From a virus: DNA of 45,178 nucleotides. The position numbers and the translations under genes were made by a program. Shown piece by piece: positions 1 to 45,178 of the stretch; the stretch's first letter is position 1, and each line of letters begins with the position of its first letter. The stretch is from positions 1-45,178 of the IMG/VR virus record IMGVR_UViG_3300033004_000004; one strand, written 5' to 3'. Under the pieces are notes generated by a model. The model saw nothing but the letters and a program-made list of their open reading frames with translations, made no database searches and was not told the DNA's origin.

Positions 1-1359
1 GGGCTGCCCATTCGCATCCACCATGCCGGTGTCAAACCGCTTCGTTGCCAGTGCATCCTGAATCCTCGCGTAGGTTCCCACAATTCCAGGCTCCGCAACC
101 GGCTTCAACCCCTTTGCTGCTGCTCGTCCTACTGCTGTGCTCAGCGTCTGCTTCCCAAGAAAAGCCTTGAGATCCTTCATCCCCTGGGTGTTATCAACAG
201 TCTCCCCTGCAGCTTCCTTTCTCTGCACAATCGCATCCCGCTCAGCCAGAGTCTGCTTATACGCCTGCCCACGAGCCTGCAACTCTGCACCATACTTGCT
301 CATCACGGAATTTCTCATATCCGTGCCAATGTCCGACAATTCCCGCACCTGCCCCACATTCTTCAGCTCCGGCTCTGCCATCGCCAGCACTCTGTTGGCC
401 GTTGCGAGCTTACCTCCTGCTGCTTTGTTTAAGGTAGTAGCCCTCGCGGCGGCCTCGGCTCGCATTTTCTCTACCGTGGTCCGGGTCTCGTCCATGTGAC
501 GGATAGCAGCCTCGGCATCGGTTGCCGCGAGCCGAGAAACCTCTCGCCCGGCGGCCTCAATATGCGCCCTCCCCGCAGCTTCCGCAGCCTGCCGATCCAA
601 CTCAACCCCTTGCTGCAGCATGGCGTGCACTGCATTGCGGGGTTGGTTCACATTGTCCAGCTTGCTGAGAGCCGATTTGGCAGCCTCAACAGCCTTCGAC
701 CCTTCCGGCACCTCATTACCCAGAAGTTTTTGGACAAGTTTCCAGGCAACTTTCCCTGCCTTCGGCACGAACTGCTCTACCATCCCCGCGCTCGGGCTGA
801 CAAATCCACCGGCAATCCGAGCAGCTTCTGCTTGCCCCTTCGTCCCTCCAGCGGCCTCAACTAGCTGCCCACCAGCCTCAGACGCCATCCCAGAGACTGC
901 GCCTGTTGCAGCAAGGGCCATCCTCCCGCCCTTCATCGCAGTCCCCGCCTCAATCATGGGCAATCCGATTTCCGGCTGCCCGAGAGCTGTTGCTGCTGCT
1001 CCAAGTCCTTGCAGAATCTCCGGAGACATAGCACCAAGAGCGCCACCCATAAAAGTACTTTGCCCAATGGCGGAAGCAGCACTGCCAAGGGTGGGATGGG
1101 AGGTAGGTTCATCAAGTGCTCCTGGTTTGGTGATCGGAGGGCGCAGGGCTTCAAGGTTGTGCATCACCCGGTCATAGGCAGTGGAAGTGGCAGCAGGAGT
1201 AGTAGCAGGAACAGCTGCTGTTGTGCCTGCATCTTCCTTTGCCGTTCCTGCAGAGAGCTGCTGTTGCAGAATCTGAAATGCCTGCTCCTTTGTAGCCCCC
1301 TCAGGCCCTGTGACCGTATAGTTCCTACCTTCAGGTGAGGTGAAAGTGAAATCCGGCAT
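1..1359 (-). CDS. Large internal virion protein, N-terminal 453 codons (cut by window end)
   Basis: The frame opens at an ATG just after the stop of the preceding gene and runs off the window start without a stop. The N-terminus (MPDFTFTSPEGRNYTVTGPE, then an EQAF...LQQQL segment) resembles the short leader seen on many large internal or ejection proteins of short-tailed phages. It continues with a Gly/Ala-rich hydrophobic stretch (about residues 90-170) and a long Ala/Glu/Lys/Gln-rich helical region. It lies downstream of two other likely internal virion proteins. The missing C-terminal part is the open frame at the other window end: joining the ends with the single terminal G shared gives one frame of about 830 aa. 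A role in DNA ejection or in the inner core is inferred; I see no lysozyme or transglycosylase motif. Confidence 0.75.
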   Translation of the reverse strand, partial: MPDFTFTSPEGRNYTVTGPEGATKEQAFQILQQQLSAGTAKEDAGTTAAVPATTPAATSTAYDRVMHNLEALRPPITKPGALDEPTSHPTLGSAASAIGQSTFMGGALGAMSPEILQGLGAAATALGQPEIGLPMIEAGTAMKGGRMALAATGAVSGMASEAGGQLVEAAGGTKGQAEAARIAGGFVSPSAGMVEQFVPKAGKVAWKLVQKLLGNEVPEGSKAVEAAKSALSKLDNVNQPRNAVHAMLQQGVELDRQAAEAAGRAHIEAAGREVSRLAATDAEAAIRHMDETRTTVEKMRAEAAARATTLNKAAGGKLATANRVLAMAEPELKNVGQVRELSDIGTDMRNSVMSKYGAELQARGQAYKQTLAERDAIVQRKEAAGETVDNTQGMKDLKAFLGKQTLSTAVGRAAAKGLKPVAEPGIVGTYARIQDALATKRFDTGMVDANGQP

Positions 1360-1360
1360 G

Positions 1361-2770
1361 TTAGTGCTCCTGTACCGACCAGCCAGCCGGGAGAGCCGGT
1401 GCGGTCGTGGTTGCCGCTGCAGGTGCGGGTGCTGCTTGCGGCATTGACAAACTGTCCCTCAGCTTCTCATAGCTCCCTTGCAACTTCATCAGCTTCTCCC
1501 GAGCCTTCGGATCTTGTGCTGCCGAGAGGATTTGATCAGGTGTGGGGTATTTCGACAATTGCTGCATGGTCATATCCCACTCAGACTTCATTGCAGGGTC
1601 GCGGGGAGCGGGAGTGTTCTTCATTCTGGTGAGCGTGATCTGGGCACCAGTGGAGAGCTTGTAGGCGGCTTCGAGCCTGGAGTCTCCGGAGGCCGGAATG
1701 ATCTGCTTCTCCAGCTGGTTGATCTGCGCTTGTGTCACACCGCGACCACCTCCGAGGGTTTCCACCCGGCCGATTTGGTTAGCCAGGCCAGCGCCGGAGG
1801 TCTGGAACATCTGCACTTCCTCTGGCGTGAGGTTGTTCGTACCTGTTTTTGCAATGGCTTGCAGTGCAGTATGATCCGTCAGATTCACAAACGGAGACGA
1901 AGTAGTCCCTGCCCCGAAGTGGGACATCTGCTGTAGGTTTCGCAGAGCTTCTGCGCTCGCACCAGCCAGTGCAGTGGTGGTTGCTTGCTGCTGCTTGCCT
2001 CCAATACCTGTTTGCTCCCTTCGGAACTCGAATTCCTTTTCGGATAGCTGCAGGCGCTGGATTTCAATCGAGCGAGTGAGGGCACGGTTAGCAGCAGCAT
2101 CTGCCATTTGCGCTCTGCGATCGGCTCGGCGCTCCTCAAATTCTCGCAGTTGCTGCTGCCGTTGGTCATTATGCTCCTGCGCGCGCTCCAGGAATTCAGC
2201 CTTGGTCTTCGCATCCATCGAGGCGAGCTTCTGCTGGTTGATCCAAGCCTGCCCCTCCGGAGATTTGAGGTTCGCAGGGATAGTTGCCGGGTTCACACCA
2301 GCAGCAATGGCCTTGTCATGCAAGGCTTTGGCATTCTCCGGCGTGGGATTGGTCGCGAACGCATCAGCAGATTGTGCCAAATCCTCCTTCTTGAGCTGCT
2401 GTTGGGCAGACTGATACGCAACCTGCTCCTTACCCTCATCAAGAGACTGCTTTGCGAGCCTCGACATGTTCTCGCTGCCAACCATATCCCCACTCTGCAG
2501 AGCCATCACTGCAGCTTGGTCGAACATCTTTGCGCGGTTGAGGGGATTTGCTGCATCTGCTCCCTGCAGTTGGGTCTGTGAAGCAATCATTTGCCCCAAA
2601 TCCTGGGCAGTTTTGATCTGCTGCTGCTTCTCAGTGAGAGCTATTTGGGCCATTTGTGCTTGAGCTTTATCCAGGTCAGTTTTTGCCTGCTCCTGCTGCA
2701 TCTGCTGGCCGAAAATGATGTTGCGCCCATAGGCTTGACCAAGGCCTTGAAGAAAACCTCCGATTGCCAT
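1361..2770 (-). CDS. Coiled-coil internal virion protein, 469 aa
   Basis: The product is very rich in Gln, Ala, Glu and Lys, with long predicted helices (about residues 20-60 and 120-260, the latter containing runs of Gln and Glu-Arg repeats) and a Pro/Ala-rich C-terminal tail. It starts with a short hydrophobic Gly-rich segment. Composition, size and position between a Gly/Ala-rich protein and the giant end-spanning protein fit the set of internal or ejection proteins in podovirus virions. There are no enzymatic motifs. The assignment rests on composition and gene order only. Confidence 0.6.
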   Translation of the reverse strand: MAIGGFLQGLGQAYGRNIIFGQQMQQEQAKTDLDKAQAQMAQIALTEKQQQIKTAQDLGQMIASQTQLQGADAANPLNRAKMFDQAAVMALQSGDMVGSENMSRLAKQSLDEGKEQVAYQSAQQQLKKEDLAQSADAFATNPTPENAKALHDKAIAAGVNPATIPANLKSPEGQAWINQQKLASMDAKTKAEFLERAQEHNDQRQQQLREFEERRADRRAQMADAAANRALTRSIEIQRLQLSEKEFEFRREQTGIGGKQQQATTTALAGASAEALRNLQQMSHFGAGTTSSPFVNLTDHTALQAIAKTGTNNLTPEEVQMFQTSGAGLANQIGRVETLGGGRGVTQAQINQLEKQIIPASGDSRLEAAYKLSTGAQITLTRMKNTPAPRDPAMKSEWDMTMQQLSKYPTPDQILSAAQDPKAREKLMKLQGSYEKLRDSLSMPQAAPAPAAATTTAPALPAGWSVQEH

Positions 2771-2782
2771 GATGAGTTCTCC

Positions 2783-3412
2783 TTATGTACCGTAGGCCAG
2801 GCCGGAACCCATGCCGTAGGAAATATCAGGTGCGGAATAGGTATTACCACCAACATTGTAGGAGGAAGTGCCTACGCCGGTATTGAAACCAGATGGCATG
2901 GTGAACCCTTGCTGACCACCGCCCATCCAGCCGGAGACAGCATTGTTGAGCGCCCCTCCGACCTGATTCCCAACAGCACTCGCAGCTTGCTGATTGAGCA
3001 GCCCTTGCTGCGCAGTGATCTGCCCTGCAGTTCCTGGTGAGCCAATGTTCGCGCCAGCCAATTGCGCGAGCAGCAGTTCCTGGTTCTGCAGGGCGTTCGA
3101 GGCGTAGTCCTGCCCGAATTTCGTCAGAGCGGTCGCCCGATTGCCGCTGGTCAAGAACCCTTGCGCAGCCATCTGCCCGCTGAGGGCTTTTTGCCCCTGC
3201 TCAAACTGGAACTGATAGCCAGGCTGGCTGGTGATGCTCGAAGGATCACTGATTAGTCTAGACAGCATATCCTGATACTGCCCACGTTGGGAGGCGAACG
3301 GGTCGGCTTGCGCTGCACCTTGAGCAGACGAACTTCCCCCACCAAGAAGAGACGAGGTTGCTGAACTGGCAACACCGCCTGCTACTGCACCTACAACTGC
3401 GCCGAATGGCAT
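2783..3412 (-). CDS. Gly/Ala/Gln-rich internal virion (DNA ejection) protein, 209 aa
   Basis: The N-terminus is a small-residue hydrophobic segment (residues 1-27, Gly/Ala/Val/Ser) that could insert in or cross a membrane. A Gln/Ala-rich middle (residues 35-135) includes YQFQFEQGQKALSGQMAAQG and a SGNRATAL motif, typical of small phage proteins annotated as DNA transfer or internal virion proteins. The C-terminus is Gly/Ser/Tyr-rich and low in complexity. An AGGAGAAC ribosome site precedes the start. Function is inferred from composition and from its place ahead of two larger internal proteins. Confidence 0.6.
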   Translation of the reverse strand: MPFGAVVGAVAGGVASSATSSLLGGGSSSAQGAAQADPFASQRGQYQDMLSRLISDPSSITSQPGYQFQFEQGQKALSGQMAAQGFLTSGNRATALTKFGQDYASNALQNQELLLAQLAGANIGSPGTAGQITAQQGLLNQQAASAVGNQVGGALNNAVSGWMGGGQQGFTMPSGFNTGVGTSSYNVGGNTYSAPDISYGMGSGLAYGT

Positions 3413-4347: not shown

Positions 4348-5742
4348 TCAACCGTTCAGCACGTCCATATCCAATTTCGTGTCAAACAGCCTCAGCGGAA
4401 CATTATCTGAATGCGTGAGCTTGAATGCTCGCCTGCGGCTCCGCCCGATTCGTTGCAGCATCTTGCGAACACTGCTCAAATCAATTGTTCGGCTCACCGG
4501 GAACGTGCTGTAGTCATCATCAGAGTACGAAATCGTGACGGTTGTGCTGACTGTATCCGCAAACAGGTACATGCCGCTATACCGCTTCCAGTTCTCCGTC
4601 CCGAAATCATAATTCGGCGTCACACACGTAACAGGTATCGCATTCCCCTGATCCTGATACAGCGTTGGATCAACGTAGATTGTATTCCCTGTCACGCGAT
4701 CTTGCAGCAAGTCTTTCCCGTAGAAGGAGAGGTAATTGCGGCCAATGAAGTAGGTCTCGTTGCCACCAATCATGCTCGTCCAAATCGTCCACTTCTTCAG
4801 CCCAATATCAAAGACCAGCGTCACCCCCAGATCCGCGAAGGTGAAGCAAAACAGCACATGCCCAGCAACCTTGACCCCGAAGCTCGACACATCAGCCAAT
4901 GTGGAACGGTTGAGGATCTTTTCGATGAACCCGTCGCTGATGACGGACATTTCCAGCCCGTTGAACATGTTGATGGTGCGACCAAACCGTTTATCTTGAG
5001 CGACGAAGAACGTCAGGTCGGCGTTCTCTAGCTGCCCCAGCCCTGTCGCCAAGCCCGTAGTCCACGAAGCATTCTGCACCGGAGCAAGGGCGATCCCCTG
5101 CCCATTCACCGCAGCCGCTGCATCATAGTACATCTGCGTGCCATGCGAATAGAACGCTACAACATAGTTCAGGTGGCGAATGATCCCCGCCCCCGCCCCC
5201 AGGGTGAAATCTGCTTGAATAAAGTCCAGCGCTGGCCACGTCGTGCCATCCTCCAGTGCGCTCCCTAGAACTTGCCCATCACTCCGCATCACATAGTACA
5301 CACCATCAAGATACACAAACCCTGGAACAGTCGTCGCGGGGTAGTTGGAATCAGTGACTTGAGTGAAGGTGAAGGAGGAGCCGATCCAATGCCATAAGCC
5401 ACTGGCACTCTTGATGAAAGCCTCGCCAGGAGGTACATCATTCAGACAATCATACTGCTGGCCAGGCACTGTCACGCCGGGGATCGAGTACGATGTCCCA
5501 TCAGTCAGTGAATATGCCACATCATTCACAATCGCGTAGGCCACGCCATTCGAATAGAACTGCCCCTGCGGAGTGCCGCTGAAGGTCTTGTACGTACCAG
5601 CTCCAGGGCGTTTCACCATCGCCAGGCCATTCTCTGTTGCCTCGAACAGACCATTCACCACCTTGCTGTCCTTCGTCAGCGTCCCATCTCTGGTCTGAAT
5701 GGTGTGAGCCCACGTCATTGTTTGCTGCTGTTCCATTGTCAT
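4348..5742 (-). CDS. P22 gp10-like tail/DNA-stabilization protein, 464 aa
   Basis: A beta-rich protein with repeated short Gly/Tyr/Thr segments reminiscent of a beta-propeller. Length, the start of the mature region (TRDGTLTKDSKVVNGLFEAT) and the position right after the gp4-like adaptor match the P22 gp10 class of tail hub or packaged-DNA stabilization proteins. The ATG overlaps nothing but sits 2 bases from the preceding stop, with an AGAGGAA ribosome site; a second in-frame ATG lies two codons later. It probably plugs the portal vertex and connects the adaptor to fibres. Family assignment is by general resemblance, not a catalytic motif. Confidence 0.6.
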   Translation of the reverse strand: MTMEQQQTMTWAHTIQTRDGTLTKDSKVVNGLFEATENGLAMVKRPGAGTYKTFSGTPQGQFYSNGVAYAIVNDVAYSLTDGTSYSIPGVTVPGQQYDCLNDVPPGEAFIKSASGLWHWIGSSFTFTQVTDSNYPATTVPGFVYLDGVYYVMRSDGQVLGSALEDGTTWPALDFIQADFTLGAGAGIIRHLNYVVAFYSHGTQMYYDAAAAVNGQGIALAPVQNASWTTGLATGLGQLENADLTFFVAQDKRFGRTINMFNGLEMSVISDGFIEKILNRSTLADVSSFGVKVAGHVLFCFTFADLGVTLVFDIGLKKWTIWTSMIGGNETYFIGRNYLSFYGKDLLQDRVTGNTIYVDPTLYQDQGNAIPVTCVTPNYDFGTENWKRYSGMYLFADTVSTTVTISYSDDDYSTFPVSRTIDLSSVRKMLQRIGRSRRRAFKLTHSDNVPLRLFDTKLDMDVLNG

Positions 5743-32203: not shown

Positions 32204-32238
32204 GCACTGAAGCCCTACCACCAAACAGGAACACCAAC

Positions 32239-33624: not shown

Positions 33625-33625
33625 C

Positions 33626-33847: not shown

Positions 33848-36256
33848 ATGGCACTGCTCAGAATCAAAGGTGTTGGCCCACTTCACCCCAAAATCATGAT
33901 CGTCGGTGAATGGCCGCATGAGGCTGACCTTCGCAAAGGCGAGCCGTTCATCGGTGGGGTGGGGTTTGAATTCACCAAGATGCTGCAAGAGGCAGGCATT
34001 CGCCGTGATGACTGCTATTTGACCACGGTGATGAAAACCCGCGTGTTCCCCGGCACGAAGCTGATTGCGACTACGAAGAAGGAAATCACCCCGCAGCACA
34101 TCTTTTTCCAGGGAGAGCATGTTCTCCCCGAACTCTACGATGCCGCGATGGAGTTGCGTCGGGAGATTGAGCAAACCCGCCCCAATGTGATCTGCGTCTC
34201 CGGTGATGTGGCGTTGTGGGCGCTCACAGGACAAACCTCCTCCCACTCATGGCGCTCGTCCATCATGGATAGCGTGCTGGTCGAGGGGATCAAGGTAATC
34301 CCAACACTCTCTTTCAACCTCGTGCATGTGCAGTGGGCGAAGCGGCCATGGATCGTACATGATTTGAAGAGGGTGCTGCGGAACAGCCTGACTCCGGGAC
34401 TTTTTACCCGCGATTATAAATTTTTAATAGCGGTCAATAATTCGGATGAGCAGTTCCAATCGGTACGCAATCAGTTGGAATCCCTCATCACTTCCGCACG
34501 CACGCACCTCGAAACCTTCGACACCCGTCTGGAAGTCTCCGGCGACATCGAAACCCGCAAGGGCCACATTTCCTGCATTGCCTTCGGCTGGTCGAACACC
34601 GAAGCATTGTGCATCCAGTTCATGAAAACCAACTCCCCCGAGGGGTTTTGGGAAACTGAGCAGGAAGCTGAATTCGTTTACCTCATCCGACAGCTTGCCA
34701 AGTACGTGCAATTGATTGGCCAGAACTGGAACTATGATGCCCAGTATATTTTCCGACATTGGGGGTTCCTGTTCGACCACGTTGACGACACGATGATCCG
34801 TCAGCACTCGGCATTCAGCAATCTCCCCAAAAATCTCGCGTTCCTCTCTTCGATGTATTGCGAAGACCACCTGTACTGGAAGGACGATCGGGTGAATTGG
34901 GAGGAGGGGCAGGATGGCGAAGGGGAAATGCAGTACTGGCGGTACAATTGCACCGATGCCGTGCGTACTTATGCCATCAATAACGTCCTGAAAGGTGTTC
35001 TCAAGGGCATGGGCTTGGAGACAGTCTATGACTTCCAGTCCACCCTCCGCCCCAAAGTCCTCAAAACCATGATTCGCGGTGTTCGTGTGAACAACAAGTT
35101 GCGTGGGGAATTTTCCATGCAGCTCATGGAAGAGGCTGGCAAGCGTGTGCAATGGATGCGTGACGTCCTCGGCTATGAACTAAACATCCGCTCCCCCAAG
35201 CAGCTCCAGGATTTCTTTTACCGCCAGATGGGTCTCAAGCCCCTGATGGATCGCAAGACAGGTAGTGTAACAACCAATGATGCCGCCCTACGTACGATTG
35301 CTGCTCGTGAGCCGATCCTACTTCCAATTACCCGCAAGATTGCCGAACTTCGAAGCCTTGGCGTGTTCCATTCTACGTTCGTACTCGCACCGCTTGATCG
35401 AGACGGCCGTATGCGGTGCACATTTAACTTGTGCGGAACGGAAACCTATCGATTCGCATCCTCGAAGAACGCCTTTGACACTGGAATGAACATGCAGAAC
35501 ATTCCGAAGGGCGGGGAGACTGAGGACGATGGTCTCGAACTCCCGAACATTCGGAAACTGTTCATTCCTGACGAGGGGATGGGATTTTTTGACATCGACC
35601 TCGATAGTGCTGACCTGCGGATCGTGACGTGGGAGAGTGATTGTGCGTGGATGAAGGAGCATTTCAAGAACGGTCGCAAGCCCTACGTGGAAGTTATGCG
35701 TGAGTACTACCACGACAACACCATGACCAAAAACTCGCACCCACGCGAGTATGCAATGTTTAAGAGCCTGTGCCACGGGACTAACTATCTCGGCACGGCG
35801 GACGGCATTGCACCGCGTATTGGGCTGAACGTCCACGAAACTGAGCGTATTCAGAAGTGGTACTTTGAACTAGCCCCTGAGATCCGCAAATGGCAGGAGA
35901 ACGTCAAGAAGCAGGTGTCTAGTCGTCGCTACGTTGAGAACGCATTCGGTTATCGCAATTACTTCTTTGACAAAATTGAAGGCACGATCTTCAATCAAGC
36001 GGTTGCCTGGATTCCGCAGAGTACGGTTGCGTGCCTGATTAACCGTGCCTATGTTGCGATTGATGACAACATGCCCGAAGTGGAGATTCTCCTGCAGGTG
36101 CATGACTCCCTCGCAGGGCAATTCCCCCTCCACAAAAAGGAGGAAATGCTGAAAGGTATTCAGGAACACGCAACCATTGCGATTCCATACGACGATCCGC
36201 TGTACATTCCTGTTGGTGTTGTGAGTAGTGCTAACTCTTGGGGAGATTGTGACTAA
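33848..36256 (+). CDS. Family A DNA polymerase with N-terminal uracil-DNA-glycosylase-like domain, 802 aa
   Basis: Residues 1-183 resemble family 4/5 uracil-DNA glycosylases: IMIVGEWPHEADLRKGEPFI matches the 'GEaPG..Ed..G.PF.G' motif, but the usual C-terminal HPS-type catalytic loop reads SFNLVHVQW, so activity is doubtful. Residues about 225-400 form a 3'-5' exonuclease (DIET near 233, GQNWNYDAQY near 291, YNCTDAVRTY). The polymerase follows: motif A DIDLDSADLRIVT, motif B FKSLCHGTNYLGTADGIA, motif C LQVHDSLAGQFP (HDS in place of the common HDE). Residues 185-198 are encoded by a copy of the dispersed palindrome. A related UDG-like/PolA arrangement is known from SPO1-type phages. Confidence 0.92.
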   Translation: MALLRIKGVGPLHPKIMIVGEWPHEADLRKGEPFIGGVGFEFTKMLQEAGIRRDDCYLTTVMKTRVFPGTKLIATTKKEITPQHIFFQGEHVLPELYDAAMELRREIEQTRPNVICVSGDVALWALTGQTSSHSWRSSIMDSVLVEGIKVIPTLSFNLVHVQWAKRPWIVHDLKRVLRNSLTPGLFTRDYKFLIAVNNSDEQFQSVRNQLESLITSARTHLETFDTRLEVSGDIETRKGHISCIAFGWSNTEALCIQFMKTNSPEGFWETEQEAEFVYLIRQLAKYVQLIGQNWNYDAQYIFRHWGFLFDHVDDTMIRQHSAFSNLPKNLAFLSSMYCEDHLYWKDDRVNWEEGQDGEGEMQYWRYNCTDAVRTYAINNVLKGVLKGMGLETVYDFQSTLRPKVLKTMIRGVRVNNKLRGEFSMQLMEEAGKRVQWMRDVLGYELNIRSPKQLQDFFYRQMGLKPLMDRKTGSVTTNDAALRTIAAREPILLPITRKIAELRSLGVFHSTFVLAPLDRDGRMRCTFNLCGTETYRFASSKNAFDTGMNMQNIPKGGETEDDGLELPNIRKLFIPDEGMGFFDIDLDSADLRIVTWESDCAWMKEHFKNGRKPYVEVMREYYHDNTMTKNSHPREYAMFKSLCHGTNYLGTADGIAPRIGLNVHETERIQKWYFELAPEIRKWQENVKKQVSSRRYVENAFGYRNYFFDKIEGTIFNQAVAWIPQSTVACLINRAYVAIDDNMPEVEILLQVHDSLAGQFPLHKKEEMLKGIQEHATIAIPYDDPLYIPVGVVSSANSWGDCD
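34402..34440. repeat. Dispersed 40-bp palindrome, copy 9 (inside the polymerase gene)
   Basis: TTTTACCCGC, a diverged core TTATAAATTTTTAA, then the intact right arm GCGGTCAATAA. It keeps the reading frame and encodes about 13 residues (185-198) at the glycosylase-like/exonuclease junction. Confidence 0.85.
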
Positions 36257-36531
36257 TGGACATTGAAAAGACTCTTGAGGAACGTGGTTTGAGATATGGG
36301 CGATTCATCGACCATGCAACCATTTGCCAAAATATTAAGGCTGCAATATGCGGCACCCCTGGATGGGGCAATTTGGCAGCTGACCAAAAGCAAGCTCTGG
36401 AGGTTATTGCCGATAAGATTGCCCGGATGCTGAATGGAGATCCTGACTATATTGATAATTGGCATGACATTATTGGGTACGCCAAGTTAGTTGAGGACAG
36501 GCTTTCTGGTAAGAGCCTAATTGTGGGGTGA
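36256..36531 (+). CDS. DUF6378-like protein, 91 aa
   Basis: The pattern LEERGLRYGRFIDHATICQN, then W-NLAADQKQALEVIADKIARM and DYIDNWHDIIGYAKLVEDRL matches a widespread small phage family (R..rYG.F...a.i...l.......L...q...le.Ia.KiaRil.G...y.D.w.DiiGYa.L) annotated as DUF6378. All-helical. It starts 1 base into the polymerase stop. Relation to all-alpha nucleotide pyrophosphohydrolases has been suggested for such helical phage proteins, but is unproven here. Confidence 0.8.
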   Translation: MDIEKTLEERGLRYGRFIDHATICQNIKAAICGTPGWGNLAADQKQALEVIADKIARMLNGDPDYIDNWHDIIGYAKLVEDRLSGKSLIVG

Positions 36532-36534
36532 CTA

Positions 36535-36840
36535 ATGAACATCTTCTTTTTCTTCGTCTGCATGGCTGATGGCTCCGTCCACGCAGTGAACATCGCCTGC
36601 TCATCCGAAACCGATCCTCTCGACAATTTCGACGGGCTCTTTCAAACACGTTGGACGCTCATGGGGAAACTTCCCCTGAAGTGGGAAGATGTGCGGCGCA
36701 AGCGGGTCATTCCTGATGTGATGGCACTCGATGAGGCTATTACCCTCGGTGGAGCACCGACCGTGGGCGGCATTGAATTCCACACCACCACCGGGTTGCC
36801 GGGACGGGTGGAGTACCAACACCCCTACCTCGACAACTAA
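36535..36840 (+). CDS. Last rightward gene, 101 aa, unknown function
   Basis: Starts with a strongly hydrophobic run (MNIFFFFVCMADGSVHAVNI). The body has WTLMGKLPLKWEDVRRKRVI and ends HPYLDN. The N-terminal Phe run is too short for a full membrane span with what follows, so an alpha/beta fold is likelier. No family is recognised. Confidence 0.65.
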   Translation: MNIFFFFVCMADGSVHAVNIACSSETDPLDNFDGLFQTRWTLMGKLPLKWEDVRRKRVIPDVMALDEAITLGGAPTVGGIEFHTTTGLPGRVEYQHPYLDN

Positions 36841-36865
36841 CCCACCGCACGTCATCAATTACTTA

Positions 36866-36899
36866 CAAAAAACCCCGCTCTCAGGCGGGGTTCTCTTTT
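36866..36899. terminator. Bidirectional terminator between convergent convoys
   Basis: AAAAAA, CCCCGC stem (36873-36878), loop, GCGGGG (36885-36890), TTCTCTTTT. The A-run and T-run make it work on both strands, as expected where early (rightward) and late (leftward) convoys meet. Confidence 0.85.
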
Positions 36900-36936
36900 C
36901 CAACCGCGATTAATAATTATTAATTGCCGTCAAAAA
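36899..36936. repeat. Dispersed 40-bp palindrome, copy 10
   Basis: CCAACCGC, perfect core TTAATAATTATTAA, GCCGTCAAAAA. Directly next to the bidirectional terminator between convergent genes, so a promoter role is unlikely for this copy. Confidence 0.92.
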
Positions 36937-36937
36937 T

Positions 36938-37153
36938 TCACTTTTGCAATGCCGCAGTAATTTGCTGCACCAGCAACTGCCGAGCCGAGTTGTCGATTTG
37001 CTGAACTTGAGCCAGCTCATCCGCCGTCAACTCCGACCGCCCCTGCGATTGGGCCGTTGCCACGATCTGCCCAATCACCTGAGTCTGTTGAATCAACTGT
37101 GCTGCTGTTGCCGTTGCCTGCATGAGCAGTGCCAGTGCCTGTGCGATGTTCAT
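36938..37153 (-). CDS. Small Gln/Ala-rich helical protein, 71 aa
   Basis: An all-helical protein ([20 protein letters not shown] start, then [20 protein letters not shown]). Its ATG overlaps the stop of the preceding small basic gene (ATGA). Last gene of the leftward convoy. Possibly a small virion or lysis-linked protein; not recognised. Confidence 0.6.
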
Positions 37154-37296
37154 TTCCGTTTCCCTTTCTGTTTGTGGCTCTTGCCTGCCTTGCTCAGTGC
37201 AATCGCCACTGCCTGTTTCTGCGGTTTGCCCGCCTTCATTTCGGTCTTGATGTTCTTCGAGACTGTTTCCTTGGAACTGCCCTTCTTCAGCGGCAT
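37150..37296 (-). CDS. Small Lys-rich phage protein, 48 aa
   Basis: [20 protein letters not shown], then [20 protein letters not shown] and a basic end. This is a widespread, strongly conserved small phage protein type ('MPLkKG.S..vis.NI..E...[12 protein letters not shown]...r') of unknown function. Supported by family resemblance, GAGGC-like ribosome site and ATGA overlap with the next gene. Confidence 0.8.
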
Positions 37297-37308
37297 GATT
37301 GCCTCCGA

Positions 37309-37644
37309 TTATTTGGCCGGAACGAGTGCTTTTGCCTGCTGCAGCAGCGTCGCCACCAATTGCAGATCCTCTGCCAGCCCAGGTGATTGCGCGCCAATCT
37401 GATTGCTGTTCAGCTTCTCCGCATCGTCCAGTGCGGCTCGTGCCTTGTCCGTCAGATCCAGCACCTGCTGCGCCTTCGCAACCGTAATCACACCCGATCG
37501 CAGAGCCGCTGCCGCCGACTCCCGCACCGCCGCAACCGTGCCGTAGCTGTACGCCAGCGTTTGCGAGGTCGATTGCGGGGCCGGAATCGATGCACACCCG
37601 GCAACCGCACACACCATTGCCACTACCACCAGCAGCTTCTTCAT
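37309..37644 (-). CDS. Putative lipoprotein, 111 aa (spanin-like candidate)
   Basis: A classic lipoprotein signal: MKKLLVVVAMVCAVAGCAS with lipobox VAGC at residues about 14-17. The mature part is helical with Ala/Gln/Leu and likely coiled coils. In the lysis cassette after endolysin and a membrane protein, it could be an outer-membrane spanin subunit, but it lacks the Pro-rich character of Rz1; another outer-membrane role is possible. Its start overlaps the upstream gene's stop. Confidence 0.65.
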   Translation of the reverse strand: MKKLLVVVAMVCAVAGCASIPAPQSTSQTLAYSYGTVAAVRESAAAALRSGVITVAKAQQVLDLTDKARAALDDAEKLNSNQIGAQSPGLAEDLQLVATLLQQAKALVPAK

Positions 37645-37886
37645 TTTGCCTCCTTAGCCGTCAGCGCGGCGGGGACTTCAGGGAGATCAGGCACCTGCTT
37701 GGCATAGCCAAGAGCATGCACCACTTTCAGCAGCGTGCGGGCTGCCACGTACACACCGATCACGGCTGCAATCAGCGGTGTGTCCTGCTGCGGGATCAGG
37801 CCACTTGCGAATCCAATCACCGACACTGCTGTTGCCGCAAACTCCGACGACTTGAATCCTGAAGACGGGATGCTGTTGCTGCTCAT
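37641..37886 (-). CDS. Small membrane protein, holin-like, 81 aa
   Basis: Two hydrophobic stretches (FAATAVSVIGFASGLI near residues 16-31, and PLIAAVIGVYVAARTLLKVV near 37-56) separated by a short PQQDT turn, with an exposed C-terminus (PDLPEVPAALTAKEAK). This hairpin-like layout fits a small class of phage holins or holin antagonists. It overlaps the endolysin stop and the lipoprotein start, so it is co-translated in the lysis cassette. Confidence 0.62.
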   Translation of the reverse strand: MSSNSIPSSGFKSSEFAATAVSVIGFASGLIPQQDTPLIAAVIGVYVAARTLLKVVHALGYAKQVPDLPEVPAALTAKEAK

Positions 37887-38356
37887 TGCAAACCTCCTTG
37901 ACGTAGTTGATTGGCGATTCTGTTCATGCGACCGTTAGCATAGGCTGGCTGGTTGAGAGATGCAAGGTAATTCAATCGTAGGGCATTAAACAGTGCGACG
38001 AACTGCCAAGGGTTCATTGCACTGATTGCAGCAATCGTTTTCGGACCGATTTGCCCATCAACAGTCACCCCTGCCACTTGTTGTGCCCATTGCGCCGGTT
38101 TCCCCCCATTGTAAGCTGCATCAAGAATCTGATCCGCAGCCCATCCAGGCAATTGATCGCAACTGTACGGCAGCCAGTACTCCTGAATTGCAATCTGCCG
38201 AGCGGTTGCAAGAGGCAACTGCTGCATCGGCCCGATATAACCATGCCGTGCAGCCGTGGATTGGGTGATGCCATATTGAGTCGGCCCCCCATTGTCTACG
38301 GTAAACCCTCCCTCATTCTGCAGCAGCACCTGCCAGCACGCGTCAAAATTTGCCAT
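37883..38356 (-). CDS. GH108 endolysin (N-acetylmuramidase), 157 aa
   Basis: The N-terminal catalytic motif is LQNEGGFTVDNGGPTQYGIT (about residues 12-31) with the E-GG-D-GGPT-GIT signature of glycoside hydrolase family 108, where the Glu is the catalytic acid. The second half (about residues 85-155) with DGQIGPKTIAAISAMNP is the peptidoglycan-binding type 3 region common in this family. There is no signal or SAR segment, so a pore-forming holin is needed for release. Flanked by two candidate holin genes. Confidence 0.92.
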   Translation of the reverse strand: MANFDACWQVLLQNEGGFTVDNGGPTQYGITQSTAARHGYIGPMQQLPLATARQIAIQEYWLPYSCDQLPGWAADQILDAAYNGGKPAQWAQQVAGVTVDGQIGPKTIAAISAMNPWQFVALFNALRLNYLASLNQPAYANGRMNRIANQLRQGGLQ

Positions 38357-38648
38357 GCTTTCCTCCCCTCAACTTGAGGATCTGCTCTGCTTTGTTCCTC
38401 AGCATCCTCTCAATATACTGCTGCCCAATGATCCCCAACCCACTCCCAATTGCCAGCAATGCCAGCTGTGGGATGTTTGGCACCTGAATCAGCGCCACAC
38501 CGGCAATCATGCTCGTAGCAGACCCGAGAATTGCCCGACCGAGAATTACCCGGAAGGTTAACTGCTCGCTACTGGTCAACAGTTTAGCGACACCTATAAA
38601 CGCGCCCATTATGGCTAATCCCAAAATAGACTTCTCGTATTCTTGCAT
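38343..38648 (-). CDS. Candidate holin, 101 aa
   Basis: Three hydrophobic segments: ILGLAIMGAFIGVAKLL (near residue 8), LGRAILGSATSMIAGVALIQ (about 36-55) and LALLAIGSGLGIIGQQYI (about 62-79), with a basic C-terminal tail. This topology matches three-span phage holins. The 3' end overlaps the endolysin start by 14 bases. It is upstream of endolysin in the transcript, a common order. Confidence 0.7.
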   Translation of the reverse strand: MQEYEKSILGLAIMGAFIGVAKLLTSSEQLTFRVILGRAILGSATSMIAGVALIQVPNIPQLALLAIGSGLGIIGQQYIERMLRNKAEQILKLRGGKHGKF

Positions 38649-38696
38649 CAGTTAGCCCCGTCTTCACTGTCTATTGGTCTGTTATGTGAGACTCTA

Positions 38697-39191
38697 TTAT
38701 TTCGGGGATATCCAAGAGATACCCCGAACATCCTCGGCAGCCGTTGGACTGCTTTCTACAACAGCTGTAACCTGCGCAATCAAGCTTGTAAGTTGCGCCT
38801 GACACGCATTCAGCCACCTCACAAAATCCCCACAAACTTGCTGCGCTTGTGCTTGGGTATGCGGAGTAAGTGCAGTTGTACTGGATGAGCACCAAAGATC
38901 TCCACCAGACGGGGCGTTAGCGATCATACTCTGATTGCTCTGCGTAGTCGGGTCTGATGGGTAGAGGAAACTTTGTCCGAGCGCACTGGAAGAGAACCCA
39001 GAAATAATGGCTTCTCGGCAATCTCCAGTCAGTTCAGAGATCTTTGCCGTTTTCACTTCGGCTAAAGTGAGAACCTGGGTGGCAGCAATAGCGGAAAATT
39101 GCTCTGCGGTGAGGGGAACCGCCCCTTCTGGGGCAGCATTCCCATTATCCAGTCCCCTCACATTCCCATCAGTAAGTTTAAAGTAGTCCAT
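38697..39191 (-). CDS. Tail fibre assembly/DUF4376-like protein, 164 aa
   Basis: The middle (about residues 45-150) has EVKTAKISELTGDCREAIIS, FLYPSDPTTQSNQSM, and DFVRWLNACQAQLTSLIAQV, the pattern of DUF4376 ('vK..ki..l...C...I..G..s.alG....Yps...dQ.Nl....') found at the ends of tail fibre assembly proteins. It directly follows the tail fibre gene. It may be a fibre chaperone or a virion tip component. Confidence 0.75.
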   Translation of the reverse strand: MDYFKLTDGNVRGLDNGNAAPEGAVPLTAEQFSAIAATQVLTLAEVKTAKISELTGDCREAIISGFSSSALGQSFLYPSDPTTQSNQSMIANAPSGGDLWCSSSTTALTPHTQAQAQQVCGDFVRWLNACQAQLTSLIAQVTAVVESSPTAAEDVRGISWISPK

Positions 39192-39200
39192 AAATGCTCC

Positions 39201-40685
39201 TTATGCGATGCGGCGAATGATGATGCGACCGGTGCTCGCGTTCGAAAACGCGAGCGTACCGAGCGACGTCCACGCGGTCGTCGTGTCGGTAGTGGTGGAA
39301 CTTGATGCCGTACCAAGCCATCGAGAAAACGTGTGGTACAGGTAGAACCCGGATGCGCTGATGTAGCTTCCGGATGCGCCGAGAATCGTCTTCGCGGCGG
39401 TGCGCGTGATCACATTTATGACGCCTTGCGCGACATCTCCGAAGGACGCGAGAAAGCCATTAAAAAACCCGCTGCTGGCCTGGGCCGCCGTGTTGACGCC
39501 GTCCAGCACCTGCCCGAAGAACATGTTGGTGATCGACCCGTTGTTCGGCAACAGCAGCACGTTACCGTTCGATGCACCCGATGCGCCATTGAGCATGAAG
39601 CGGATCTCGTACTGCTGGAGATCCGCCGTGGCGATATGCAGTGGCACGCTCGATGCAGCTGCGATGTCAATGTAAGCTTCCTGACCTAAGGCCAGAGGGA
39701 CATCAGACACTGCTCCAGTATTGTTGATTGGGGCATTCGCGGCTGCAGTCGACGCTGCCACAATACTCGTGATGCCCGCAAGACCTCCAATACCCTGCAC
39801 GAGCGTGGGGGACGTGGCCCATGTGCCCGCCGTAGCCTCCATAATCGTCACATAGCCTACCACTCGATACGGGCTATTCGCACTAACCGCCGATTCCGAA
39901 TAGACCGTACTAGCGCTATTCGAACTGCCGCTAATCGTCGTCGGGCTGATAAGGCCAGTTTCGGAAAAGTCCAAACCACCGCTGAGGTTCGCGATACAAA
40001 GGACAGGAGCCCCTCCGTTGTAAGCAACCAGCAACATGAGCGTGGCAGCCGTTCCCGAAGCCGTTCCCAGTGTTGCCCCTGACGGGACTGTCAAGGACAA
40101 GGGCGAAGCAAGGCCAACCTTAGACAAGGCCCCATTTGGGAGGGAGCCATTTCTGAACTGCAAAGCCCCAATAGCAGTGTATCCAACAGTGAGCGCATTC
40201 GATGCAACGGACGCAGAGACAGTCTGAATGTCTTTAGTGGCAGTGGGGAAAATTGCCTGAAACTGAGCGCCATCGTAGACAGCAGTTACCACGTATCCGC
40301 TCAGGATGCTTCCAGGCAGAATCGAAGACCCTCCAAGCTGTACGAGGTTCACTGCCCCAATACCATCCACGTTTAATGTCGGCGCGTTCGTGGTGTTCGT
40401 CCCAACAGCGACGAATCGAAATACCTGCCCCGCCGAATACGAAGCTACCGTGGGATTGCCCACAGCCGTGATAGTATCAGTTCCCGATACCGAAGTCAGC
40501 CATTGAGTCGAGCCACCTTGAATCAGGGAAGGAATGCCGAGGTTTGCCAACAGTTGAGCAACAGTGGTAGGGATTGCCTGCGAATCTCCCCCCATCACCC
40601 CCCAATTCAGGTTGGAAACTTGATTCAGCCAAGACGCCGTGATAGGGGTCTCAGGGCTATAATCAATGAAATTCGGAATAGTCAT
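39201..40685 (-). CDS. Tail fibre (receptor-binding) protein, 494 aa
   Basis: Starts MTIPNFIDYSPETPITASWL with an 'itA.WLN.vn' segment near residue 20 that is typical of phage fibre attachment ends, followed by long Gly/Ser/Thr/Ala/Val-rich beta-repeat regions. The C-terminal part (about residues 340-494) is distinct and encoded by noticeably more GC-rich DNA (39201-39660), which fits an exchanged receptor-binding tip. ATG at 40685 is chosen over one 8 codons upstream because AGGA precedes it. Likely trimeric. Confidence 0.78.
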   Translation of the reverse strand: MTIPNFIDYSPETPITASWLNQVSNLNWGVMGGDSQAIPTTVAQLLANLGIPSLIQGGSTQWLTSVSGTDTITAVGNPTVASYSAGQVFRFVAVGTNTTNAPTLNVDGIGAVNLVQLGGSSILPGSILSGYVVTAVYDGAQFQAIFPTATKDIQTVSASVASNALTVGYTAIGALQFRNGSLPNGALSKVGLASPLSLTVPSGATLGTASGTAATLMLLVAYNGGAPVLCIANLSGGLDFSETGLISPTTISGSSNSASTVYSESAVSANSPYRVVGYVTIMEATAGTWATSPTLVQGIGGLAGITSIVAASTAAANAPINNTGAVSDVPLALGQEAYIDIAAASSVPLHIATADLQQYEIRFMLNGASGASNGNVLLLPNNGSITNMFFGQVLDGVNTAAQASSGFFNGFLASFGDVAQGVINVITRTAAKTILGASGSYISASGFYLYHTFSRWLGTASSSTTTDTTTAWTSLGTLAFSNASTGRIIIRRIA

Positions 40686-40695
40686 AAAAGTGTCC

Positions 40696-41208
40696 TCAGA
40701 TAATGCCAATCACAGTGTCAATAGGAGAGCGACTTGGGTAGTTTATAGTATTCGGGACAAGTGGATGATCCCCGATTTCAAGATTGTTGTAGGAAGGGAA
40801 CGCACATCCAGGTACTGCCCAAGATGGAAGTCCATTGACCCCTTCTAGTGTGCAGTTAGGTCTACCTGCTTCAGGAGAGCTTGGCAAGAAAGCTGGATTG
40901 TAGTATGTGGGCAGAGCGCATCCAGGTACAGCCCACGAAGGAATCGCATTCTTCCCTCGGAGTGTGCACTGAGAAGGAGCTGGCACCCAAGTCTCAGGGA
41001 CTTTTTCTGGTCTCGACCATGGCACTGTCTGGTCATCCTTCACACCACGTAGGAAATCTTGTGGGTTGCGCACTTCCTTGTGATGCTTGCAGACATACAG
41101 ACCTTGCCATGTCTTCATAGCTTCGGTCGATTTAACCTTTGCCCCGCACAGGTCGCAGAAGAAATTCCACGCACCATTGCGGAAATAGTCTGCTCTGCCT
41201 TGACCCAT
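40696..41208 (-). CDS. Zinc-finger-like protein with duplicated PSWAVPGCA motif, 170 aa
   Basis: The N-terminal part has CDLCGAKVKS and VCKHHK (about residues 18-43), a plausible zinc site. The C-terminal half carries two copies of a CTL-G-N--PSWAVPGCA-P-Y-N repeat (about residues 81-108 and 118-145). Very few proteins have such a motif; it may bind a ligand or metal through its Cys. Located between two probable fibre genes; a virion or assembly role is inferred. GGGGGTA ribosome site supports the chosen ATG. Confidence 0.7.
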   Translation of the reverse strand: MGQGRADYFRNGAWNFFCDLCGAKVKSTEAMKTWQGLYVCKHHKEVRNPQDFLRGVKDDQTVPWSRPEKVPETWVPAPSQCTLRGKNAIPSWAVPGCALPTYYNPAFLPSSPEAGRPNCTLEGVNGLPSWAVPGCAFPSYNNLEIGDHPLVPNTINYPSRSPIDTVIGII

Positions 41209-41234
41209 GCTACCCCCACAAAACAATACAGAAA

Positions 41235-41744
41235 TTAAGAGAAACTTCTCGCTCGGATGTTTCCTACAGCGGTAATACCCGCAACAGCAAAAGCAGCGTA
41301 GGCCAGTAGGTAAACAGTAGAGGGGGAAGAGAGATTGTACCGCACCGTGGGGACAGCGATCTCAGGAGAAAGTTGCGCCCATCCCACGGTGTTCACACTC
41401 GATCTCTGAAGCACACGAGAGCCTGGGACAGCACCAAATGCCGAGCTGCTGGAGCTAGTACCGCACATCAACTCACTACACTGAGCCCCGCTACCCATCT
41501 GAAACTGCACAACACCGCTCACATCCCAATCCCCCGCAGGGAGAACCAAAGACGCAATCGGGGTGATGGTGGTGGTGGTCAGAGCAGTACCAACACCTGT
41601 CGACTCTTGGTATCTACCTGAATTTACAGCTGCATTTGCAGATGCTTGCGCAGTGTCGCGTAACTGCAGGAACCACCGCTGCCATGCATGTGCAGATGTA
41701 CCATCTTTTCCTACAGGAGGGACAGGAGGAAGTGGCTGAGTCAT
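41235..41744 (-). CDS. Tail/fibre-associated beta protein, 169 aa
   Basis: Starts MTQPLPPVPPVGKDGTSAHA, followed by AWQRWFLQLRDT and then a beta-rich domain (ALTTTTITPIASLVLPAGDW, VSGVVQFQMGSGA). The 'W..WF..L' helix followed by 'G.w.v.g.v.f' strands is typical of small virion proteins near fibres in podovirus genomes. Its ATG overlaps the stop of the PurD-like gene (TGATG). Confidence 0.68.
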   Translation of the reverse strand: MTQPLPPVPPVGKDGTSAHAWQRWFLQLRDTAQASANAAVNSGRYQESTGVGTALTTTTITPIASLVLPAGDWDVSGVVQFQMGSGAQCSELMCGTSSSSSAFGAVPGSRVLQRSSVNTVGWAQLSPEIAVPTVRYNLSSPSTVYLLAYAAFAVAGITAVGNIRARSFS

Positions 41745-43066
41745 CAGTACTCCCACGAATCACAATAACCATGCTTCTGCAAAATTGGAAGTTGTTTTTC
41801 CAATCGGCAGCCGATGTCAGTCCGGTAGATAGCAGAGTTGGGGATTTCGAGCTGATCGACAACATCATAGGCAGCGGATTTGGCCTCTTCGACTGTACGA
41901 CCGAGGCCAGTTGCAACAGCAAGGTAGTTTCCGGCACTGACCAGCATAGGCTCAGCAGACCCGTTCTCTCCGATCCCGTTGCCGAGTTTCATTTCGCAGG
42001 GGTGAAAGAAGTACCTGTTGCTCTCGTCAACACCCCAAATTGGGAACCCTGACAGCTCCTCAGGTGTCTTATTCCCATACGGGAAATCAGGCATGGCAAG
42101 TACCACGCCAAGGGCAGTTTCTTTTCGCGGAGTAAACGTGTCTCGACCTTCCAGCAGATCCTTCATCCAATTCGCCACATCACCGTGGAGTACCTGCTGG
42201 ATGTTGAACAGAGGCCAACCAGGACGGGAAGTAAACTCCAGCGGGTTCAGGCAACCCTTGCGTTCGCCTTCAGTACCGACCATCACGGCCACATCGATAT
42301 AGCCGGTGTAGCCACTGCGCAGAAGTTTCGGAGTGAGCGGCAGCAGCAACTCCCGCGCAAGTCGAGACTCTTCTGCGGTTACGTACTTCATTGCCGTGCC
42401 CATTTCCCCTGTATTCGGCCCACGCTCATCGTTCATGAGCTTCTTGAACTCGAAATTTTCGAGGAAATGGGAAGCAAACCCGTCACGTCCGAACCAGCCG
42501 CCAACAGCAACCTCAATCCCAGGACAAAACTCCTGGAAAATGAACGGAGGGGGCTTCGGGATCGTACGCTTCCAATGACTGAGCATGAAGCTCATATCCT
42601 TGTGGGACTTCGAAACATAGGAGAGGGACTTGTCCACGTCAGCGCAAGGCTTGCACACGAATCTCGTGTCGCGGTGAGCGGCCTGATAGGCAATAGCTTC
42701 GTCGAATCTCTTGAAGGGGATGCTAGGCAGGCACTCGATCCCACATTCTTCCAGAACAGCCGCGCCCACGTTCCGATCCAATTCCCAGGAAGTGACTTCC
42801 AGATTCGGCCCGAAGATTGGAAAACCGCGATTGCGGTAGCCTTCCAGCTGCTGCATGTACTTGCAATTGTCGCTCAGCACAATCAGATCAGCCCACTGCA
42901 TGCTGGGCTTCCAATCAGCAACCTTCTCGATCAGCCCATCACCAATGGTCGACCGGTCACCATTCTTGAGCGGTCCCATAAACGTGCGGACGGAGTGGCC
43001 CTGTGCCTCACAGCGCATAGCGAAGTCCAGCATGCAGGAAGTGGAATCGATGAGCAGGATATTCAT
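41744..43066 (-). CDS. PurD-like ATP-grasp enzyme, 440 aa
   Basis: The overall layout is that of phosphoribosylamine-glycine ligase (GARS, PurD). An N-terminal Rossmann-like region (MNILLIDSTSCMLDFAMRCE, DLIVLSDN) is followed by an ATP-grasp core (FVCKPCADVDKS near residue 137; FQEFCPGIEVAVGGWFG near 175; GYTGYIDVAVMVGTEGERKG near 258). The 'lEfNaRfGDPE' block is replaced by NPLEFTSRPGWPLFN, and the PurD-type C-terminus is kept (VSAGNYLAVATGLGRTVEEA, YRTDIGCRLE). The PurD N-terminal GGREHA motif is missing, so the substrate is probably altered. It is encoded between virion genes, coupled to the 169-aa gene. Confidence 0.8.
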   Translation of the reverse strand: MNILLIDSTSCMLDFAMRCEAQGHSVRTFMGPLKNGDRSTIGDGLIEKVADWKPSMQWADLIVLSDNCKYMQQLEGYRNRGFPIFGPNLEVTSWELDRNVGAAVLEECGIECLPSIPFKRFDEAIAYQAAHRDTRFVCKPCADVDKSLSYVSKSHKDMSFMLSHWKRTIPKPPPFIFQEFCPGIEVAVGGWFGRDGFASHFLENFEFKKLMNDERGPNTGEMGTAMKYVTAEESRLARELLLPLTPKLLRSGYTGYIDVAVMVGTEGERKGCLNPLEFTSRPGWPLFNIQQVLHGDVANWMKDLLEGRDTFTPRKETALGVVLAMPDFPYGNKTPEELSGFPIWGVDESNRYFFHPCEMKLGNGIGENGSAEPMLVSAGNYLAVATGLGRTVEEAKSAAYDVVDQLEIPNSAIYRTDIGCRLEKQLPILQKHGYCDSWEY

Positions 43067-43074
43067 GCAAGTGG

Positions 43075-43515
43075 TCAGGAATCGATTGTGGTGAGGGCGT
43101 AGTTGGCTGCGACCCGGATCGTGCCCGCAGTGAGGGCCATATTCAGCGAGACGGTCAGTGTGCTCCCCGGCGTGCGAGCACGGAACCAATAGCCCGTACC
43201 TGTTGATGCCAATTGCGGGCCCGTCGGCACGGTAGGCGCGGTGAACGTCGCAGGGATATAGACTCGATACTGACTGACGCTCAATCCCGACCCCGTGTCG
43301 GTGAAGTTGATCGACACCATCCCCCCACCGGAGACGGTGCAGCTGGCATCAACTTCCACAAACAGCCGAGTGAGCAGATACCCAGGAGCACCAGTAACCA
43401 TCAGCTGTGGTGTCGTCCCCGCAGCGCTGTTCAGTGTAACGGGGACGTACAAATCCCCGATCATCGGGGGGAGTTCGATACCAGTACCACTGACCAGAAT
43501 GTTCGATCCGCTCAT
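43075..43515 (-). CDS. Small virion-type beta protein, 146 aa
   Basis: Starts MSGSNILVSGTGIELPPMIG, followed by regular strands (YLLTRLFVEVDASCTVSGGG, SQYRVYIPATFTAP, TLTVSLNMALTAGTIRVAAN). The composition is that of a beta-sandwich found in small tail or capsid-surface proteins. It is the first gene after the 0.5-kb control region. An ATG preceded by GGGGTGAG is used; a GTG lies one codon upstream. Confidence 0.65.
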   Translation of the reverse strand: MSGSNILVSGTGIELPPMIGDLYVPVTLNSAAGTTPQLMVTGAPGYLLTRLFVEVDASCTVSGGGMVSINFTDTGSGLSVSQYRVYIPATFTAPTVPTGPQLASTGTGYWFRARTPGSTLTVSLNMALTAGTIRVAANYALTTIDS

Positions 43516-43546
43516 CACTCACCCCACGAGGGAACTCCTGCCGGAG

Positions 43547-44043: not shown

Positions 44044-45178
44044 TCAGTACCCTTCCACCGCCCGCCTCGCCCTCCCCGCGCTCTCCCCCAGGGCTGCCGC
44101 CACGTACATTTGCACCAGCTTCACCTTCTCCGGTCCCTTGTACGCCCGCAGCACGCGCTCCACATCCCCCTGCAGTGCTTTCAGCCTCTCCGGCGGGAGC
44201 ATTTTCCCCTCCGTGAGCATGGGCAGCACCTGCTCGCTCCACTTCTGCTTCAACTGCCCTTCGCTCAGCCCACTCAACACCTCGCGCACACTCCCCTCAA
44301 GCACCTGCTGCCCACCAGGAGCTGCACTCAAATGCTTAGCAGCCAGCCGGGTCTGCTCCGGCGAGCCTTCCAGCAGCAATTTCCTCACCGCTCCTGGGGC
44401 CTCCGCACTCTGTAGAATGCCCTGCAGCTTCTGACTCGGTGCAAACCTCTCCGTCACCAGCTGCTGCACCTCCTTCTGTGCAGTCTCCTGCAGCCTCTTC
44501 TGCACATCCACACTCCCACGGGCTATCTCTGCCGCGCGAGAAGTCCCTGCAGCCATCTCCTTCGCTGCTGCGGCCTCAGCCGCCGGACGAACCTCCGCCG
44601 CAGCCCCTGTCAGCCCCTTCGCCCTCTGCCCGAGCTTCTGATTCACCCGCTCAATCTGCTCCAGCTTCTGCTGATACCCCTGCACCCTCTCCGTCAGCCC
44701 CGGAATCTCCCTCGTCCAATCTCGATTCTCCCGCAGCCACTTGCCTACCTGCTTCGCATCCTGCCCCTGCAGGCTCCGCGCGGCATAATCTCCTGCCATT
44801 CGATTGACCTGCTCGGGGTTCCCAACCAGCTCCTTCAGATCGCGGACGCTCTGCTGCGACTGAAAAGCATTCTTCGGTAGGCTTTTTGCATCCCCTGCGA
44901 ACTGTTCCATGTTGACACGATCGAGTGCAGTAGCTTTCTTGCCAAGCCTCGTTTCGAATTTAGCCAGTTCACCACTTGCTCCAGCATAACCTTCCTGCAG
45001 TTCTTTCTGAATGTTCGTGCCATCGGGTCGGGTTCCCACAAACTCCTCTTGGATCTTGCTGATCCTTGCATACAGGTCAGATGCTTGCTGATGCGTGAGG
45101 GTGGAAAATCCTTCCACATCACGATTCTTTACCACATCCCCAAGCTTCCTGCGAATCTGATCCAGAGCATCGAAGCTG
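44044..45178 (-). CDS. Large internal virion protein, C-terminal part (cut by window end)
   Basis: An open frame running from the window end (first full codon at 45177, SFDALDQIRRKLGD) to a stop at 44044, 377 codons plus the stop. It continues the gene cut at position 1. Very rich in Gln, Ala, Glu, Arg and Leu with long helices, typical of inner-core or ejection proteins. The first ATG at 45135 is an internal Met, not the start, because coding character continues upstream to the end. The last residues are AGRARRAVEGY. Confidence 0.75.
   Translation of the reverse strand, partial: SFDALDQIRRKLGDVVKNRDVEGFSTLTHQQASDLYARISKIQEEFVGTRPDGTNIQKELQEGYAGASGELAKFETRLGKKATALDRVNMEQFAGDAKSLPKNAFQSQQSVRDLKELVGNPEQVNRMAGDYAARSLQGQDAKQVGKWLRENRDWTREIPGLTERVQGYQQKLEQIERVNQKLGQRAKGLTGAAAEVRPAAEAAAAKEMAAGTSRAAEIARGSVDVQKRLQETAQKEVQQLVTERFAPSQKLQGILQSAEAPGAVRKLLLEGSPEQTRLAAKHLSAAPGGQQVLEGSVREVLSGLSEGQLKQKWSEQVLPMLTEGKMLPPERLKALQGDVERVLRAYKGPEKVKLVQMYVAAALGESAGRARRAVEGY

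Follow-up and report, generated by a model that had tools for sequence, protein, structure and literature searches.

The PurD-like protein encoded at 41744-43066 of the window (the whole 45,178-nucleotide stretch of viral DNA analysed here) belongs to a monophyletic, widespread viral family of environmental phages, in which the predicted fold of GAR synthetase (PurD) is combined with a coordinated set of active-site replacements and a conserved place among the virion genes. To judge from its residues it is probably an ATP-grasp ligase active on a carboxylate and an amine. The reading we prefer, to which we give a probability of about 0.45, is that of a catalytically competent carboxylate-amine ligase that joins an amino acid to an amine other than phosphoribosylamine (PRA), with a virion protein as the favoured acceptor. 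The genes concerned are listed here by position and strand; L001 denotes another contig, almost identical, from the window's own virus.

41744..43066, minus strand: PurD-like ATP-grasp ligase, 440 aa, ATG start (TIGR00877, PDB, AlphaFold2, fold and alignment evidence)
41235..41744, minus strand: fibre-base gene with a Pro-rich N-terminus (MTQPLPPVPP...), its start overlapping the ligase stop; weak match to phrog_11393 tail fiber, 5.6e-7
43075..43518, minus strand: 147-aa gene with no family match, directly upstream, 8 nt from the ligase start
44044..45177, minus strand: large internal-virion protein (cluster 3), C-terminal half, 99.7% to residues 494-870 of the L001 frame
1..1359, minus strand: large internal-virion protein, N-terminal half, 99.3% to residues 34-486 of the L001 frame
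1361..2770, minus strand: cluster 5 protein, 469 aa, part of the conserved module by locus clustering
2783..3412, minus strand: cluster 1 protein, ~210 aa, putative ejection protein, a function suggested by size, composition and position only
4348..5742, minus strand: head-closure protein (phrog_578, Hc3), the bait for ligase-independent retrieval of relatives
40696..41226, minus strand: cluster 4 protein with a Cys-rich N-terminus (CDLCG...CKHH), the next conserved gene downstream

Relationship to PurD and its cellular relatives

The first-pass annotation, made from the sequence alone, had taken the protein for a relative of PurD, and this relationship is real. The gene matches the purD model TIGR00877 with E=1.3e-17 and 63.8 bits, more than four-fold short of the curated equivalog cut-off of 288 bits. 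Residues 43-422 match PDB PurD chains with E values down to 3e-15, the E. coli PurD profile matches residues 1-422 with E=3.5e-20, and the Pfam GARS_C match lies under the gathering score. At relaxed thresholds TIGR00877 is matched by 35 of 35 family members (the best at E 4.1e-27), so that mislabelling as purD is easy. The window protein has no PHROG match, and a search of PHROGs with the 35 members gave just one weak match, for a single member.

An AlphaFold2 model (35 family members) has a pLDDT of 90.8 and the ATP-grasp fold, and the three-domain PurD arrangement with GARS_C and the RxDIG signature is present in model and family. All 13 of the listed GAR synthetases align with the model over the whole chain at Z scores of 28.6-32.9, as against ~23 for PurK, PurT, PylC and biotin carboxylase; the structural comparison proposed in the first pass has returned a full PurD fold. 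The predicted architecture is that of a complete PurD, N-terminal domain included, despite the lost GGREHA motif. Among the BFVD viral predicted structures there were distant ATP-grasp matches only, the best with a TM score of 0.42.

In a protein scan, relatives were encoded on at least 200 IMG/VR stretches, the best 80 of which (46-99% identity) make up the locus set used below. A family-profile search of genome contigs found three contigs only, all in metagenome-assembled genomes (MAGs) and all placed by the tree within the viral clade. The phage collection held one full-length relative, unannotated, on MW202796 (46%); MT838306, from the same collection, carries a genuine PurD. For family pairs at ~68% protein identity dN is 0.27-0.29 and dS is above 2 or saturated, which places the gene under purifying selection, and this, with the occurrence on at least 200 viral stretches, rules out a chance or artefactual reading frame. 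In a tree with PurK as outgroup the phage clade has a UFBoot support of 99 (weaker in FastTree, 0.78) and the clade of phage plus cellular sequences one of 100, both standing apart from PurD. Recent capture of a host gene by one phage is ruled out by this deep monophyletic clade and by a GC content of 53.9% in the ligase gene against 55.4% in the whole window. A literature search for this phage ligase family found no paper.

The cellular homologues, from Halarchaeum (WP_123078225.1), Roseomonas and a Sphingomonas plasmid, are 27-31% identical, and proteins from the phylum of a MAG labelled Elusimicrobia are 48-51% identical to the Halarchaeum homologue. A frameshift interrupts the plasmid copy of Sphingomonas daechungensis (L088:10001-11301). 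Each of the eight cellular genomes tested has, besides the PurD-like gene, a second and stronger match to PurD, in seven of them over the cut-off and in one as a partial gene at a contig end, with E below 1e-130 in seven of the eight. The cellular PurD-like genes have no shared neighbourhood, flanks being common to just two closely similar genomes, and as solitary genes they offer no functional clue. The haloarchaeal proteins rrnAC0307 and Hlac_1553, represented in our tree by the Halarchaeum homologue, have been described as PurD-like proteins without GARS_N, the Mg sites and the GDPE aspartate, which are not GAR synthetases (PMC3261824, 2011). Descent of the phage ligase from this PurD-like clade of non-GAR synthetases appears, from the sequences, to be the best explanation.

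Active-site residues

The alignment of residues covered seven PurD sequences, ten from the cellular PurD-like clade and 48 from phages. The ATP contacts of Aquifex PurD are K103, K143, E185, E192 and K214, and its glycine contacts D212, R287 and E292 (PMC8880213). E95, K139, E185, K208, E277, R281, R415 and D417 do not vary between PurD, the cellular clade and the 48 phage proteins. Likewise invariant across the alignment are the residues that correspond to K143, E192, K214, R287 (which binds the carboxylate) and the acidic E286 of E. coli PurD, a Mg ligand. Every non-PurD sequence has R98 in place of K103, E206 in place of D212, T279 in place of E. coli N288 and E221 in place of E. coli G229. 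These changes (K105R, D212E, G229E and N288T) are common to the phage and cellular clades, as is the appearance of an acidic or amide residue at position 258. In the phage sequences E292 has become L in 44 of 48 and the D of GDPE has become W (W284) in 46; GDPE is absent from all members, whose glycine site keeps its R but has E for D and L for E. The glycine-rich N-terminal loop is also replaced, with D7 in 46 of 48 and D14 in 44 (two entries are gapped there), and GxGGREHA is missing from the phage proteins, where nothing among the common residues corresponds to R11, E12 and H13 of PurD. The first-pass annotation had remarked on the missing GGREHA, on an EFNxRFGDPE block altered to NPLEFTSRPGWP and on a retained YRTDIG; each is correct for the window protein and holds throughout the family.

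Among the Mg ligands E277 is retained, T279 stands for N288 in every member, and D258 is extra. D258 sits two residues off the metal-ligand positions of DdlB and PurK (hhalign), an offset that leaves its equation with the classical first Mg ligand unsupported residue by residue; as a guess, it might assist metal binding and so compensate for the loss of N288. Taken together, the coordinated and fixed changes of the site appear to be those of a re-specified enzyme rather than of a decaying PurD.

Position among the virion genes

Gene order across the 80 loci runs from phrog_578 head closure, sometimes a GNAT gene, cluster 1, cluster 5 and the internal-virion protein to the ligase, the fibre genes and lysis, and the position of the ligase is conserved in nearly all of them. 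In clusters 13 and 29 the large internal-virion protein carries an SLT transglycosylase domain. This protein is the conserved partner of the ligase on the side away from the fibre genes, and in the window the 147-aa gene lies between the two. In the window the ligase stop TGA overlaps the downstream ATG by one base (TGATG), as stop and start do in about 19 of 66 loci. The gene that follows has, in most of the 66, a Pro-rich start and then a W..W[FL]-like motif (the candidate starts were partly picked by the Pro-rich stretch, the W motif being no criterion), and the fibre-base gene of the window probably starts at 41744 rather than at an upstream GTG. The late location among virion genes, with a stop/start junction to a gene that weakly matches a fibre protein, had thus been read rightly in the first pass. 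Its phrase "in the tail-fibre module" is better replaced by a placement between the genes for ejection proteins and those for fibres.

A search with the single cluster 5 neighbour returned the near-identical contig alone, and the head-closure profile was therefore used to fetch relatives, giving a ligase-blind sample of 16 loci that continue for 8.5 kb or more downstream. Fourteen of the 16 have the ligase, on the same strand and 4.3-6.7 kb downstream of head closure. The remaining two, the close relatives L175 and L181, are without it and keep both the internal-virion protein and the fibre-base gene, so that no neighbour strictly requires the ligase. Their ligase slot (L175:7458-7661, L181:6060-6269) is occupied by a short unrelated gene (MPLKSGKSxKTISSNIRTE...), and in Alcaligenes phage QDWS535, a more distant relative, a lysozyme takes this place. 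The ligase is strongly retained yet dispensable, a combination more in keeping with an enzyme than with an indispensable structural component.

The cluster 4 protein, which has a possible zinc-binding N-terminus and no family match, is found in many relatives and, at a different position, in phage QDWS535. Many relatives also have a GNAT acetyltransferase (phrog_1249) within the virion module (e.g. L057:3463-3918); it was dropped as a partner of the ligase, being present in relatives that have none. The ends of the window split one gene, with about seven residues missing at the junction, so that a nearly complete genome, circular or permuted, is probable. Elsewhere, 33848-36256 (+) encodes a family A DNA polymerase with a fused N-terminal domain of the uracil-DNA-glycosylase superfamily (Pfam UDG, 1.5e-16, residues 8-132), and 32239-33624 (+) a ParB N-terminal domain fused to an N6/N4 DNA methyltransferase, antisense to which lies an open frame of 473 aa (32215-33636, minus strand).

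Proposed function and comparison with known systems

An active carboxylate-amine ligase is made probable by the invariance of the core ATP-grasp residues; the amide- or peptide-type ligase suggested earlier would follow from the same conserved residues. ATP would phosphorylate the carboxylate of a small substrate to an acyl-phosphate, the substrate probably being an alpha-amino acid other than glycine; R281 would be kept for the carboxylate and E206 for the amine, with W284 and L286 reshaping the pocket. The activated amino acid would then be passed to an amine other than phosphoribosylamine, since conserved acidic residues, D7 and D14, have replaced the glycine-rich N-terminal loop. The favoured acceptor might be a lysine or the amino terminus of a late virion protein encoded adjacent to the ligase (the fibre-base or an ejection protein), a speculative choice drawn from gene position only. 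That a phage ATP-grasp enzyme amide-links an amino acid to a fibre-base or ejection protein during assembly is a tentative proposal, conceivable but rather unlikely, and to our knowledge amide-linked addition of an amino acid to a virion protein is not known for any phage. Counting against competence is the Thr that stands in every member for the canonical second Mg ligand, E. coli N288. In the haloarchaeal relatives, too, the Mg sites have been counted as missing (PMC3261824). The clean loss of the ligase from L175 and L181, beside unchanged neighbours, also counts against the preferred reading.

The same chemistry could be directed, late in infection, at another target (an amino-acid conjugate, an envelope or peptidoglycan precursor or a host protein), for instance so as to exclude superinfecting phages or counter a defence. 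The genes of the cellular sisters are solitary and lie outside virions, which makes a metabolite the probable ancestral substrate. The early region of QDWS535, a phage with the same virion module, contains a distinct ATP-grasp/amidotransferase/amidoligase cluster, and for phage enzymes of this kind a role in altering cell walls has been suggested (PMC10580990). The fixation of the ligase in the late virion module and the absence of partner metabolic genes speak against such a target, which we hold to be a serious but doubtful alternative. Less probable is a pseudoenzyme in which the PurD fold has been recruited to build or assemble the virion. Strict synteny with the virion module, the N288 to T change and the TGATG overlap with the fibre-base gene would suit it, but the invariance of K139, E185, K208 and E277 in 48 divergent sequences would be unusual in a dead enzyme, and two relatives are cleanly without the ligase.

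That the protein is a true GAR synthetase with an auxiliary role in purine synthesis is highly improbable, although PurD supplies both the fold and the best annotated match and the carboxylate-binding R and YRxDIG are retained. The score is 63.8 against 288 bits, and the best of the 35 members falls as far behind the true cellular PurD proteins as 4.1e-27 does behind 1e-130 (seven of eight). The active-site residues of GAR synthetase, checked by alignment, are not fully conserved (GGREHA, GDPE, N288, D212 and E292 are all replaced), and the sister clade stands beside a real PurD in eight of eight genomes. Neither the scanned window ORFs, a set that falls short of every small ORF, nor the annotation of the relative MW202796 showed another purine-biosynthesis gene. 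A bona fide purD auxiliary metabolic gene (AMG) is rejected on motif, score and context, and the first-pass view that the enzyme does not serve purine synthesis is well supported by the missed cut-off, the replaced and fixed glycine and PRA sites, the lack of other purine genes among the scanned window ORFs, the virion synteny and the coexistence of the cellular sisters with a genuine PurD. Some phage base modifications include amino-acid-derived groups, but the joining of an amino acid to a hypermodified base is the least credible of the alternatives, the ligase lying away from the replication and nucleotide genes and no base-hypermodification partner being seen among the window ORFs scanned.

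These results define a widespread viral ligase family that is missing from PHROGs and the viral structure library, and the cellular PurD-like clade gains from them a viral sister group whose genomic surroundings are informative. Phage purD is listed as an auxiliary purine gene in virome papers (PMC11097641, PMC12043954); some of these "purD" AMGs may belong to the present family, a warning that genes counted as purine AMGs may have another identity. Should the acceptor of the carboxylate-amine ligase we favour prove to be a virion protein, an amide-linked modification of phage particles would be revealed.

With PurD (GAR synthetase, EC 6.3.4.13) the ligase has in common the whole fold, the ATP-grasp core, the GxNTGxMG loop, the carboxylate-site R and the C-terminal RxDIG; it differs in having no GGREHA or GDPE, in the changes of N288 to T, D212 to E, E292 to L and K103/105 to R, in scoring far below the family cut-off and in being a virion-module gene. 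PylC, PurK, PurT and biotin carboxylase share the ATP-grasp superfamily fold (Z ~23) but are clearly farther from it in fold and sequence than PurD. The cellular PurD-like clade, its sister in the tree, has ExT, D or N at 258, R98, E206 and TGExGT in common with it, and both have lost the GARS_N motif and the GDPE aspartate; the cellular proteins differ in their ~30% identity, in Y, M, V or N for W284, H for F207 and no D7, and their genes are solitary in cells whereas the phage ligases lie in the virion module. The ATP-grasp/amidotransferase/amidoligase/COOH-NH2 ligase clusters of LUZ24-like phages and QDWS535 likewise provide phage-encoded ATP-grasp amide ligases; early genes for an ATP-grasp protein, a type II glutamine amidotransferase, an amidoligase and a COOH-NH2 ligase lie at 35678-40026 of OK172329 (L101), a phage with the same virion module. 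The ATP-grasp proteins of those clusters are, however, other and smaller ones, encoded in the early region and with no PurD C-domain reported, whereas the neighbours of the present ligase are virion genes, with no adjacent amidotransferase, amidoligase or COOH-NH2 ligase gene.
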